Positions 13,673 through 53,463 of a stretch of 64,000 nt of DNA are shown here, piece after piece (the stretch's first letter is position 1; every line of letters starts with the position of its first letter). This DNA is from Proteiniphilum acetatigenes DSM 18083 (GTDB lineage: Bacteria; Bacteroidota; Bacteroidia; Bacteroidales; Dysgonomonadaceae), in NCBI RefSeq assembly GCF_000380985.1, contig NZ_KB905704.1, positions 1 to 64,000 on the forward strand, given 5' to 3'. The notes under the pieces are model-generated. The model worked only from the letters and a program-made list of their open reading frames with translations, was not told the origin of the DNA and did not search any database. The position numbers were made by a program, and so were the translations under genes.

Positions 13673-14734
13673 ATGCAACGATTATCTCAGCTTTTATTTC
13701 TGCTTGTTTTACTTATATCCTGTAACAACAATTCTGCCAATGTGGAAAAAGGTGGCTCAGGAATGTCTTTATCCGGTGCAGGTGCCACTTTTCCCTATCC
13801 TTATTACAATATTGTTTTTCGCGATTACATGCGATTGAACGGAGGTTTAAAGGTGAGCTATGGTGCCATTGGCAGCGGTGGAGGAATTCGCAGCCTGCGT
13901 GACCGCTCGGTGGACTTCGGTGCCAGCGACGCCTTTCTGAATAGTAAGGAAATCGCATCAATGAATGCGGAGGTGGTTCATATAGCAACCTGTATGGGCG
14001 GAGTAGTGATGGCTTATACCCTCGAAGGAGTGGATAGCCTCCGGTTGACAGGGCCTCTCGTTGCGGATATCTATTTGGGAAATATCAGAAAATGGAACGA
14101 TCCGAAACTCCAGGCTATCAATCCGGATGTGCCATTACCTGATCTGGATATCACCCCGGTGTACCGGTCGGACGGTAGCGGGACGACTTATAATTTTTCG
14201 GAATACCTGTCCATGGTGAGCCCCGATTGGGATAGTGTGATGGGAAAAGGAAAGGCCCTGAAATGGGAGGCGGGTATTGCGGCAAAAGGAAATCCCGGGG
14301 TAGCCGGTATTGTGCAGCAGACTGAAGGAGCCATCGGATATATCGGTTCGGAATATGCACTCACACTGAAGCTTCCGGTAGCCAAACTCAGGAATAAAGC
14401 AGGAAATTATGTAGATGCTACGCTTGAAACCATCTCTGCAGCCGCCAACGTAACGTTGCCCGACGATATGCGGGCGACAATTATTGATTCGGACGATCCG
14501 GATGCTTATCCTATCAGCCTTTTTACATGGATACTTGTTTATAAAGATCAGCAGTATGGCAACCGCACAAAAAAAGAAGCGGAGGCGCTTGTAGACATGC
14601 TTGGTTATATAATCAGCGACGGTGGACAAAAGGTGGCGGCACAGATAAACTATGCGCCTCTTTCTGCTCAAGCGATAGAGAAGACAAAAAAACTGATCGG
14701 TGAGATCCATTATGGCGGGGAGTTAATCAATTGA
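13673..14734 (+). CDS. pstS: Phosphate ABC transporter substrate-binding lipoprotein
   Basis: This 353-residue periplasmic phosphate-binding protein is a lipoprotein (LLVLLISC, Cys about residue 17). Phosphate-contact motifs are SGAGATFPYP, GSGGGIRSLRD and RSDGSGTTYNF. The start is ATG 13673: a strong AAGGAGG ribosome site lies at 13654-13660. An in-frame GTG at 13640 overlaps the promoter -7 box and cannot be the start. Its stop codon is part of a heptamer repeat that fills the gap to pstC. Expression should rise on phosphate starvation through the Pho box. Confidence 0.95.
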   Translation: MQRLSQLLFLLVLLISCNNNSANVEKGGSGMSLSGAGATFPYPYYNIVFRDYMRLNGGLKVSYGAIGSGGGIRSLRDRSVDFGASDAFLNSKEIASMNAEVVHIATCMGGVVMAYTLEGVDSLRLTGPLVADIYLGNIRKWNDPKLQAINPDVPLPDLDITPVYRSDGSGTTYNFSEYLSMVSPDWDSVMGKGKALKWEAGIAAKGNPGVAGIVQQTEGAIGYIGSEYALTLKLPVAKLRNKAGNYVDATLETISAAANVTLPDDMRATIIDSDDPDAYPISLFTWILVYKDQQYGNRTKKEAEALVDMLGYIISDGGQKVAAQINYAPLSAQAIEKTKKLIGEIHYGGELIN

Positions 14735-14790
14735 CAATTGACAATTGACAATTGACAATTGACAATTGATAATTGATAATTGATAATTGA
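14728..14790 (+). repeat. Heptanucleotide repeat at the pstS stop codon
   Basis: Six tandem CAATTGA units (14728-14769) are followed by three TAATTGA units (14770-14790). The pstS stop TGA is the end of the first unit. A second heptamer array of GTAATTA/TTAATTA units lies at 14888-14915, just before pstC. The 190-bp gap thus begins and ends with period-7 repeats inside an operon. Confidence 0.9.
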
Positions 14791-14923
14791 TAATTTGATG
14801 ATTTAACGATTTGATGATTCAGGGAGAAATTGCCAATATTTAGTCGAAATCAGAAATAATAAAAAATAAGAGGCTGTTAATCAATTTGTAATTAGTAATT
14901 ATTAATTAGTAATTATTAAATGA

Positions 14924-44094: not shown

Positions 44095-44400
44095 ATGTTT
44101 GTTTATTAAAAAATTCAAGATTCAAAATTCAAGATTTGACTACGTCGATTTTCAATTCAGATTTCAAATTTGACTATGTCGATTGAAAAGCAATTCATAA
44201 TTTGGCTTACACCGATTGTTAATCCAAAATTCCACTTTTCTGATTTACAATTAGTAATTAGTAATTTGTCATTGGTAATTTTCAATTTTAACTCCATTGA
44301 TTTTCTGTCGTCACTCGGCATAGTACAAGCAAGCTTGCCTCTGCCCTCATTCCTAAGAAAATTCAACTGTCAATTTTCAATTATCAATTATCAAAAGCAT
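44095..44400 (-). repeat. Heptamer-rich gap between the TolC-like and adaptor genes
   Basis: This gap has three period-7 arrays: ATTCAAG-type at 44113-44140, TAATTAG-type at 44248-44282, and TCAATTA-type at 44370-44397. The last array encodes the final codons and the stop (complement of 44377-44379) of the TolC-like gene. A 17-bp direct repeat ATTTGACTAyGTCGATT occurs at 44134-44150 and 44168-44184. No gene is visible between the flanking genes. Confidence 0.8.
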
Positions 44401-49994: not shown

Positions 49995-50891
49995 ATGAAC
50001 AAAATCATGGAGTGCGTTCCCAATTTCAGTGAGGGACGCGACAAACAAAAAATTGAAAAAATAGCGGATGCATTCCGGGATAAAGAAGGAGTCAAACTAT
50101 TGGATTACAGCGGTGATGCGGATCATAACCGGTCAGTGATCACCGTTGCAGGCGAACCGGAAGCATTGAAAAACGCGGTGATCGAAGCGATAGGACGAGC
50201 AGTGGAGTTGATCGACCTTACACAACACCACGGCCAGCATCCCCGCATGGGAGCAGTGGATGTGGTACCCTTCATCCCGATTAAGAATGTGACGATGGAG
50301 GAGGCAATAGCACTATCGAAAGAGATGGCACAAACGGTGGGAGAGAGATTTGGCCTGCCGGTTTATCTATATGAAAAGTCAGCTTCTGCAATTCACCGTG
50401 AAAATCTTTCCGCCGTACGTAAAGGAGAATTTGAAGGATTGTCCGATAAGATGAAGCTCCCGGAATGGATACCCGATTTCGGTCCTTCCGAACCGCATCC
50501 TACGGCCGGAGCCGTGGCTATTGGCGCACGTATGCCGTTGGTGGCCTATAATGTGAACCTGGGCACAAATAATCTGGAGATCGCGATCGCCATCAGTAAA
50601 AAAGTACGCCATATCGGCGGAGGATTACGGTTCTGTAAAGCGATGGGCGTGGCACTGGAAGATCGTGGTATCACACAAGTCTCGATGAACCTGACCGACT
50701 ACACCAAAACGGCTATTTACCGAGCTCACGAACTGGTACGCATTGAAGCACAACGCTATGGTGTACCCGTGGTGGGCGCCGAGGTGATCGGCCTTGTACC
50801 CATGGAAGCACTGGTCGACTCCGCCGCTTATTACCTGGGGCTTGAGAATTTCTCCGTCAGCCAGGTGCTTGAAGCACGGTTAATGGAATGA
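49995..50891 (+). CDS. ftcD: Glutamate formimidoyltransferase
   Basis: This 298-residue enzyme transfers the formimino group from N-formimino-glutamate to tetrahydrofolate. It matches the N-terminal domain of vertebrate FTCD only: MNKIMECVPNFSEGRD at the start, TQHHGQHPRMGAVDVVPFIP with the catalytic His residues, and ARMPLVAYNVNLGTNN. The cyclodeaminase activity is encoded separately at 52837. I chose the ATG at 49995, which begins the conserved domain; a TTG 19 codons upstream gives a non-conserved tail. A TACATTTG box (49919-49926) may be an internal promoter. It overlaps hutI (ATGA). Confidence 0.94.
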   Translation: MNKIMECVPNFSEGRDKQKIEKIADAFRDKEGVKLLDYSGDADHNRSVITVAGEPEALKNAVIEAIGRAVELIDLTQHHGQHPRMGAVDVVPFIPIKNVTMEEAIALSKEMAQTVGERFGLPVYLYEKSASAIHRENLSAVRKGEFEGLSDKMKLPEWIPDFGPSEPHPTAGAVAIGARMPLVAYNVNLGTNNLEIAIAISKKVRHIGGGLRFCKAMGVALEDRGITQVSMNLTDYTKTAIYRAHELVRIEAQRYGVPVVGAEVIGLVPMEALVDSAAYYLGLENFSVSQVLEARLME

Positions 50892-52147
50892 CACGAATGG
50901 AAATGAATAACCTGATCATAAAAAATGCCGCCCAGGTAGTTACTTGCAGCGGTTTTGAAGGAAAACGGGGCAGGGAGATGTCTGACTTGCAGGTGATTGA
51001 AGGCGGGACGGTGATCGTGACCGGCGGTGTTATCTCGCATGTCCTGCAACCGGGTGAACCGATTTCCGTAAACGAAAGCGACTACCGGATTCTCCATGCC
51101 GAAGGCAAGGCATTACTTCCCGGATTTGTAGATCCGCATACCCATTTCGTGTTCGGTGGATACCGGGAGGAGGAATTCTCGTGGCGGATGCGTGGCGAAA
51201 GCTATATGGATATTATGAACAAGGGTGGGGGTATTGTAAATACGACCCGTGCCACGCGGGAAGCGACGGAAGAAGAGTTGATAGAATCCGGCATGCAGCG
51301 GCTCGATGCGATGATGCGGCTGGGCATTACCACAGTGGAAGGAAAGAGCGGATACGGGCTTGACAGGGATACCGAACTAAAACAGCTCCATGTGATGCGC
51401 CGCCTGAATGAAACCCATCCGATGGATATCATGCCAACCTTTATGGGAGCACATGCTGTACCGGAGGAATGGAAAGGTAAAGAGGGTGAATTTATAGATT
51501 TCAATATCAGGGAGATGTTCCCGCTTGTGTCACGGGAGCAATTGGCAGAAGCGGTCGATATCTTCTGTGAGAAAGGAGTTTTCTCTGTAGAACAGTCGCG
51601 CCGCTACCTGATGGCTGCACGGGAGCATGGTTTTCTGTTGAAGATGCACGCCGACGAGATAGTACCTTTGGGTGGTGCTGAACTTGCTGCGGAGCTGCAT
51701 TGCGTCTCTGCCGATCATCTCTTGCAGGCATCGGATGAAGGGATCCAAGCCCTGGCCGAAGCAGGTGTAGTCGCTACCTTATTGCCTCTCACTGCCTTTT
51801 CGTTGCGTGAAGAATATGCCCGGGGCCGGGAGATGATTGATGCGGGCTGCATAGTGGCGCTGGCCACGGATCTCAACCCGGGAAGTTCGTTCACTGCATC
51901 GGTACCATTACTCTTCGCTATCGCCTGTATCTATATGCAACTGTCGCCCGAAGAGGCAGTCACCGCTTTTACCATCAACAGTGCGGCGGCCCTCAACCGC
52001 GCAGACCGTATCGGCAGCATCGATGTGGGTAAGCAGGGAGACCTGGTATTGCTACAATTCCCTTCCTATAAATTCCTGCCCTATCATGTGGGGATGAATA
52101 TTGTGGAGACGGTAATAAAAAGAGGAAGTATTGTAATTAAAAATTAA
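50888..52147 (+). CDS. hutI: Imidazolonepropionase
   Basis: This 419-residue metal-dependent amidohydrolase opens imidazolone-5-propionate to N-formimino-glutamate. Metal ligands are visible: HTH in GFVDPHTHFVFGG, His in LKMHADEI, His in SADHLL, and Asp in ATDLNPGS. The substrate loop GKSGYGLD is present. Its TAA stop (52145-52147) lies at the edge of the inverted heptamer arm of an inserted element, so the last residues may have been altered by the insertion. Confidence 0.95.
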   Translation: MTRMEMNNLIIKNAAQVVTCSGFEGKRGREMSDLQVIEGGTVIVTGGVISHVLQPGEPISVNESDYRILHAEGKALLPGFVDPHTHFVFGGYREEEFSWRMRGESYMDIMNKGGGIVNTTRATREATEEELIESGMQRLDAMMRLGITTVEGKSGYGLDRDTELKQLHVMRRLNETHPMDIMPTFMGAHAVPEEWKGKEGEFIDFNIREMFPLVSREQLAEAVDIFCEKGVFSVEQSRRYLMAAREHGFLLKMHADEIVPLGGAELAAELHCVSADHLLQASDEGIQALAEAGVVATLLPLTAFSLREEYARGREMIDAGCIVALATDLNPGSSFTASVPLLFAIACIYMQLSPEEAVTAFTINSAAALNRADRIGSIDVGKQGDLVLLQFPSYKFLPYHVGMNIVETVIKRGSIVIKN

Positions 52148-52573
52148 GAATGAAGAATGAAGAATGAAATATGGCTGATTCCGTATTGAAAATAAAAAGT
52201 TATCAGTTTGCTCTTCAAATAATTCAACTGGTGAAGAATTTACAAAAAGAGCAAAATGAATATATTTTGAGTCGCCAGATAATGAAGAGTGGAACAGCTA
52301 TTGGAGCTTTAATTAGAGAAGCAGAATTTGCACAAAGTAAGTCTGATTTTATTCATAAAATGAGTATCGCTTTAAAGGAAGCCAATGAGACTATTTACTG
52401 GATTTCTCTTTTGAAAGATTTATCCTATATTGACAATGATACCTTTATACCGATGAATTCTAACTGTAATGAATTAATAGCTTTACTCGTCTCGATAATA
52501 AAAACATCAAAGAAAAATTTAAAAAACTAAACATATCATTCTTCATTCTTCATTCTTCATTCTTCATTCTTAA
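52144..52573. mobile_element. Candidate insertion: four-helix-bundle gene bounded by inverted heptamer arms
   Basis: A 25-bp sequence at 52144-52168 (TTAA followed by three GAATGAA units) is repeated perfectly in inverse orientation at 52549-52573, and the right arm has two more heptamer units. Between them lies a single gene, 52171-52530. The element separates hutI from the cyclodeaminase gene. The left arm contains the hutI stop. No transposase is encoded, so mobility would need help in trans, or the arms may have grown by slippage. Confidence 0.5.
52171..52530 (+). CDS. Four-helix-bundle protein (S23/IVP, Avd-like)
   Basis: This 119-residue all-helical protein belongs to the four-helix-bundle family first known from intervening sequences of 23S rRNA genes (S23/IVP) and related to Avd of diversity-generating retroelements. 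Typical features are SYQFALQIIQLVKNL, LSRQIMKSGTAIGALIREAE and KANET-like EANETIYWISLLKD. Such proteins form basic pentamers that bind nucleic acid. Here it is not in an rRNA gene, and no reverse transcriptase or variable-repeat pair is visible. It has no link with histidine metabolism and is enclosed by inverted repeats. Confidence 0.85.
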   Translation: MADSVLKIKSYQFALQIIQLVKNLQKEQNEYILSRQIMKSGTAIGALIREAEFAQSKSDFIHKMSIALKEANETIYWISLLKDLSYIDNDTFIPMNSNCNELIALLVSIIKTSKKNLKN

Positions 52574-52575
52574 CT

Positions 52576-52782
52576 CAAGTTTCGCATGTAAATTTGGGAT
52601 GTATGCAACTAAAGTGGAGACATTTAGATATTTTGTGGGGACCCATAGGTCGAAGTGAGAGTAAAAAGAGTAGCTGTCTGAGCGAAGCGAGTTCTACTCT
52701 TTTAACGAACGAGAGCTACAATGGGTCATAAAATATCGTCAGACGAATGCTTTAGTTGCAATTCTATAACTTACGAAACTTG
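52576..52782. repeat. 207-bp imperfect palindrome (MITE-like or structured RNA)
   Basis: Matching inverted blocks share one centre near 52683: CAAGTTTCG (52576) with CGAAACTTG (52774); TGCAACTAAAG (52604) with CTTTAGTTGCA (52750); GATATTTT (52627) with AAAATATC (52730); GACCCAT (52640) with ATGGGTC (52721); AAAAGAGTAG (52664) with CTACTCTTTT (52694). The loop contains GAGCGAAGCGAG. The gap 52531-52836 has no gene. The right side continues into heptamers ATTCACT/ATTCATT (52794-52821). This could be a non-autonomous element, or could fold as an mRNA hairpin affecting downstream hut genes. Confidence 0.7.
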
Positions 52783-52836
52783 AATTCTTAATTATTCACT
52801 ATTCATTATTCATTATTCACTTTTAACTTTCAAAAT

Positions 52837-53463
52837 ATGAAACTACAGGATTTAACTTTAAAAGAATTTCTTGAAAAAACCGCGGCCAATGAAGCTCTTC
52901 CTGGCGGCGGCAGTTCTTCGGCATTGAATGCCGCTATCGCTTCTGCATTGACCGGGATGATGGCCAACCTGACTGTCGGTAAGAAAAATTATACCGATGT
53001 AGAAGAACTAATGAAAAAGACTGTTGAAGAGATGGAGGAGAACAGATTACACTTTATCAACGATATAGATCGTGATGCGGATGCATACAGTTTGGTGATG
53101 GATGCCTACAAACTGCCCAAAGAGACGGATGAGCAAAAAAAACTGCGCAGCAAAAAAATTCAGGAAGCAATGAAGGTCGCTTCACTCGTCCCGATGGAAG
53201 TAGCGGAACGCGCACATAAAATGTTCGATACCGTCATTGAAACGATCCGGAAAGGAAATAAAAATGCCGTGACTGACGGGATGGTCGGTCTGATGGCTTG
53301 CCGTACTGCCATTATGGGAGCGCTCCTTAATGTCCGTATCAATCTGAGTGGTATTAATGATACGATGTTTGTCGAAGAGTTAAAAGATAAATGTGATAGG
53401 ATTGAAAAAGATGCTATTACCAGGGAAAACAAAATGATCGATTGGGTGAAATCTATAATTTAA
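52837..53463 (+). CDS. Formiminotetrahydrofolate cyclodeaminase-family protein
   Basis: This 208-residue helical protein matches the C-terminal domain of FTCD (FchA-like): LPGGGSSSALNAAIASALTG is the diagnostic folate-binding segment, followed by DRDADAYSLVMDAYKLPK. It should release ammonia from 5-formimino-THF to give 5,10-methenyl-THF. In vertebrates it is fused to the transferase; here it is a separate gene two genes away from ftcD. A methenyl-THF cyclohydrolase activity is an alternative for this family, but the hut context favours cyclodeaminase. Confidence 0.9.
   Translation: MKLQDLTLKEFLEKTAANEALPGGGSSSALNAAIASALTGMMANLTVGKKNYTDVEELMKKTVEEMEENRLHFINDIDRDADAYSLVMDAYKLPKETDEQKKLRSKKIQEAMKVASLVPMEVAERAHKMFDTVIETIRKGNKNAVTDGMVGLMACRTAIMGALLNVRINLSGINDTMFVEELKDKCDRIEKDAITRENKMIDWVKSII

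Follow-up and report, generated by a model that had tools for sequence, protein, structure and literature searches.

A four-helix-bundle gene between inverted heptamer arms in a hut operon, a likely cassette of the rRNA intervening-sequence type

Introduction

The intervening sequence (IVS) of 23S rRNA is the nearest known kind of element to the cassette described here, with inverted termini enclosing an open reading frame of the same protein family. In the IVS of Coxiella, as described in PMC4990558, three tandem heptamers lie ahead of the S23p start, the termini form a 28-bp stem, and excision by RNase III was shown. IVP is also contained in rRNA insertions of the CPR (PMC11270868) and is named, as 23S rRNA IVP, in a figure legend on CRISPR (PMC10910872), and the Avd protein of diversity-generating retroelements represents a related four-helix family (PMC10053308). 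Proteins of the PF05635 family occur widely, and their function is uncharacterised.

Tandem 7-nt intergenic arrays are known in Xanthomonas, Nostoc and Beggiatoaceae (PMC4692102, PMC4679880), with 70-75 convergent pairs in Xanthomonas. Term searches found neither S23 nor four-helix in PMC4692102, and the terms four helix, intervening and 23S were absent from PMC4679880. Within the titles and abstract beginnings of the open-licence PMC literature, no paper was found that links inverted heptamer arms with IVP genes of the free-standing kind.

The cassette between hutI and the cyclodeaminase gene

The window, which is the whole stretch of 64,000 nucleotides from Proteiniphilum acetatigenes DSM 18083 that was analysed, carries the cassette at the hutI/cyclodeaminase junction and not in an rRNA gene (Table 1). 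An earlier sequence-only reading had described 25-bp perfect inverted arms of GAATGAA/TTCATTC units around one gene, and this description proved exact: the perfect parts of the two arms are reverse complements over all 25 nt, the pair extends to 37 nt at 89% identity (52137-52173 / 52537-52573), and the 119-aa reading frame is the sole gene enclosed. The IVP/Avd-like four-helix identity proposed in that reading was confirmed with 90.4 bits against PF05635 (23S_rRNA_IVP, cut-off 33.8) and 103.1 bits against TIGR02436. Folded as RNA, the arms gave a z of -3.9, and PADLOC returned no match.

Table 1. Features of the cassette and its neighbours in the window
Feature	Position	Strand	Remarks
hutI-like amidohydrolase gene	50888-52147	+	stop codon 52145-52147
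Upstream arm, heptamer array	52135-52168		perfect 25-nt part 52144-52168; contains the hutI stop codon
Four-helix-bundle gene (23S_rRNA_IVP / TIGR02436), 119 aa	52171-52530	+	profile matches PF05635, TIGR02436
Downstream arm, inverted TTCATTC heptamer array	52536-52571		perfect part 52549-52573
Remainder of downstream array, beyond the 210-nt hairpin element	52793-52819		array uninterrupted in G010
Cyclodeaminase gene	52837-53463	+	

Inverted arms around four-helix genes

The arm test compared 200 nt on either side of each PF05635 match, and a score of at least 12 was taken as the threshold. In the order-level set, a non-random collection that joined the top-scoring matches with selected multi-copy genomes and from which 7 of 123 loci were dropped for N or short flanks, inverted arms were found at 87 of 116 four-helix loci, against 324 of 13340 mispaired flanks and 12 of 328 flanks mispaired within the same genome. 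When direct rather than inverted similarity was counted, the figure was 21 of these 116 loci. One genus subgroup (L070, L072, L073) has direct, not inverted, repeat arrays around the gene. A comparison with control genes gave scores of at least 12 at 42 of 61 four-helix loci versus 3 of 293 control genes, none of them among the 77 controls under 600 bp; the controls came from 400 kb taken from 20 genomes.

The same arrangement extends well beyond the order. Among named loci from about 18 phyla, a count read off record titles, arms were present at 57 of 79 versus 115 of 6162 mispaired flanks, these loci being the best 80 of 584 selected by protein similarity alone, with one dropped for N or short flanks. 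Plasmid loci showed arms at 15 of 16 versus 16 of 236 mispaired (16 of 43 records, with the same regions counted twice in L299/L300 and L293/L294). A four-helix gene between locus-specific inverted arms is therefore a general design, of which the window copy is one case.

Chance, by which a small gene would merely fall between common intergenic heptamer arrays, has in its favour that such arrays are frequent: in the 400 kb of control DNA, 15 tracts had a period of 7 or 8, and other arrays lie within the window itself. However, only a single inverted pair occurred among those 15 tracts, and the excess of locus-matched over mispaired inverted pairs, together with the near absence of such pairs around control genes, refutes chance for the paired arms and leaves it with virtually no probability. 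The tie between gene and arms that the sequence-only reading had drawn stands in part. Arms fell below the threshold at 29 of 116 order-level loci and 22 of 79 named loci, and arrays without the four-helix gene are common, some of them sitting at gene-less alleles; in its favour, inverted pairs are rare away from the gene. The expectation that other copies in the same genome would also lie between inverted arrays was borne out at four of six PF05635 places (arm scores 36, 26, 23 and 18) and not at the other two, both scoring 9.

Arm units and their link to the protein

Each locus has a private repeat unit that is common to both its arms. The best period was 7 in 76, 8 in 38 and another value in 9 of 123 armed loci after removal of 11 close orthologs, and mean self-identity of the arms was 0.58 at lag 7, 0.43 at lag 8 and 0.58 at lag 14, compared with 0.23-0.29 at the remaining lags from 3 to 15. 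The upstream arm was rich in purines in 106 cases, even in 4 and poor in 13. The median arm is 31 nt long, with median gaps of 31 nt from arm to start codon and 15 nt from stop codon to arm (75 order-level loci) and a median arm-to-arm distance of 488 bp.

The period follows the protein tree with 19 changes versus a shuffled mean of 28.7 (none of 300 shuffles was as low), on a weakly resolved tree in which 60 of 101 branches are unresolved. Arm similarity also correlates with protein identity (Mantel r 0.13, p 0.001) and climbs above 60% identity, the mean being 16.6 for pairs at 70% or more (10 pairs), 8.0 at 60-70% (63 pairs) and about 5 below that. For example, L003 of G000 and L081 of G043 encode proteins that are 71% identical and have similar arms amid different neighbours. 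Since repeat unit and period change along with the protein, the protein may well recognise its own arms. A G-U wobble excess was absent from the arms (115 wobble-compatible versus 125 incompatible transitions), so they give no sign of selection on an RNA stem.

The four-helix protein and reverse transcriptases

Values of dN/dS were 0.05-0.30 in 9 of 11 ortholog pairs, with one at 0.67 and one undefined, most pairs having few differences; these values indicate that the four-helix protein is maintained under purifying selection. The solved relatives 2rld and 2gsc, the latter being XCC0516, contain five chains each and the Xanthomonas protein is termed a homopentamer in PMC4990558. The protein is probably a pentameric ring, which may recognise its own arm unit.

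As a retroelement part, the gene would encode an Avd-like protein partnered with a reverse transcriptase that acts in trans. PF05635 is indeed Avd-like (PMC10053308), the genome has three RVT_1 matches (contigs 14 and 17, the window being on contig 13), and four-helix genes are slightly more numerous in genomes with RVT_1 (mean copy number 4.5 versus 3.4 without). But the contig of the window gave no RVT_1 match, so that an adjacent reverse transcriptase is absent, and of the 59 genomes that gave no RVT_1 match, 40 have the gene, one of them in 18 copies. On these counts a reverse transcriptase as a requirement is not supported, and a retroelement origin is very improbable.

Direction and host context

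Among 107 cassettes with both neighbours assigned, 84 had both on the strand of the four-helix gene and 4 had both on the opposite strand, compared with 145 and 21 of 263 control genes in the same test. This agreement in direction fits a passenger of host transcription: a cassette that lies mostly inside transcription units and in the same direction would be carried by the host's transcripts. Selection after insertion would yield the same bias.

The rRNA-gene setting is represented by L301 alone, on plasmid AZO_p2 of Azospirillum lipoferum, where the gene lies within 23S rRNA with an arm score of 21. On the cyanobacterial plasmids L289, L292 and L297, cassettes occur between cas6 and cas4 or between cas10 and a cmr3-type gene. 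One four-helix query against phages gave no match.

Alleles without the gene and movement of the cassette

Four sites were compared across relatives, with 18 of 26 loci at the hutI-cyclodeaminase site and, at each of the others, 30 loci out of at least 35 to 37 genomes with a match. The hutI-cyclodeaminase site was occupied by the gene in 2 of 18 loci (the own genome and G010), the L002 site in 3 of 30 (the G007 copy being a 27-bit fragment only), the L001 site in 6 of 30 and the MGS site of G006 in 1 of 30. The empty-site counts are upper bounds, because the upstream sequence contains N, is short or differs at several loci (L020, L022, L030, L031, L311, L314, L318, L331, L334, L373, L383). 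The empty site that the sequence-only reading had proposed to look for at the hutI junction therefore exists, and the three other sites are likewise variable. At the L001 site, G007 retains by eye no more than one arm and the opening codons of the gene. Over the three sites named first, 4 of 67 gene-less loci had a tract of period 7 or 8 in the last 250 nt, and 6 of 11 gene-bearing loci had such a tract.

That insertion requires a pre-existing heptamer hairpin was considered and rejected, as there are gene-less alleles whose junctions are short and array-free, such as G012 for L002 and G045 for L001. Two cassettes, L002 of G000 and L074 of G006, are 80% identical, share AGAA-type units and occupy different sites, each of which is gene-free in the genome of the other. 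No target duplication was seen by eye, in a comparison of filled and empty alleles from different species. Among 123 loci, no cassette pair within one genome exceeded 71% identity, and neither a mechanism of movement nor recent multiplication was found.

These observations bear on a DNA transposon whose terminal inverted repeats would be the arms, with a transposase supplied in trans and the four-helix protein as an accessory. Its inverted ends, the presence and absence at sites and the similar cassettes at separate sites all agree with such an element; yet the ends vary by locus even within one genome, as the few mispaired matches there indicate (units are shared between close relatives), near-identical copies elsewhere and a target duplication were not found, and the direction bias is strong, which makes a transposon unlikely. 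A resident regulator, an ordinary operon member whose protein binds leader and trailer repeats and controls itself or the operon, would account for the purifying selection, the arrays near the start and stop codons and the shared direction. Most relatives, however, are without the gene at the four sites, the host operons are unrelated and the design also occurs within 23S rRNA, so that we regard this explanation as improbable. The earlier interpretation of a small gene-bearing mobile or repeat-propagated unit is supported in that presence and absence and the similar cassettes at different sites point to movement; a fixed terminal repeat is not part of the picture, as the unit differs from locus to locus.

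The 210-nt hairpin element and other repeat arrays

The downstream heptamer array of the window is interrupted by a 210-nt hairpin element (52574-52786), which has 35 BLAST places in the genome, mostly partial, and an RNA fold z of -6.3, whereas the downstream array of the relative G010 is continuous and without this element. The hairpin was considered as a component of the cassette and rejected, since no heptamer flanks were seen by eye around 18 of the 35 copies. A search of 52000-53000 against Rfam gave two matches only, both far under the gathering score, and the hairpin is without an Rfam family. In the orthologous cassette of G010, an integrase-core insertion (rve_3, 43 bits) lies within the upstream heptamer array (L195 1703-2884).

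Further heptamer arrays without the four-helix gene occur in the window at 14728-14795, 14883-14915 and 44370-44394. Gene-free pairs of inward-pointing heptamers were observed at L128 (18246-18316), L398 and L402 and may be remnants or gene-less forms. A tie between GGGAATC arrays and a four-helix gene was rejected: an 18-base pattern for these arrays occurred in 1 of 369 genomes, with the four-helix gene at none of 9 loci, several of which overlap.

Interpretation

Taken together, the cassette is likely to be protein-coding, of the IVS type and rarely moving, and to insert into operons and rRNA genes. It would measure about 0.5 kb, with two arrays of 7- or 8-nt units pointing inward from either side of one PF05635 gene, would be present or absent as one whole at any given site, and would lie mostly between same-direction genes of one transcription unit, depending on host transcription in the manner of 23S rRNA intervening sequences. 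Unit and period would be particular to each lineage, co-changing with the protein, and this correlation suggests that the protein binds the arms; the transcript may then fold and be cut at the arms, and gene and arms may move, rarely, as a single unit.

More tentatively, such cassettes may be selfish passengers of operons throughout bacteria, rRNA intervening sequences being a special case, in which a ring protein reads its own arm unit. The orphan heptamer arrays of cyanobacteria, Bacteroidota and Xanthomonas would then be left by decayed cassettes, and the CRISPR-linked listing of 23S rRNA IVP would be explained by cassettes that ride in cas operons. If true, rRNA intervening sequences, hut and cas operon passengers and orphan heptamer arrays would be united in a single picture. 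The architecture, with its locus-specific inverted 7- and 8-mers, insertion in the direction of host transcription and gene-less alleles, makes the function of PF05635 testable, and it warns against taking the operon neighbourhood of a four-helix gene as functional linkage.

Comparison with known systems

In contrast to Avd systems, the contig of the window is without RVT_1 and the gene is common in genomes free of it. The window cassette differs from the 23S rRNA IVS in lying between protein genes, and the Azospirillum locus L301 is like the IVS in placing the gene within 23S rRNA, between arms such as those of the free-standing cassettes.
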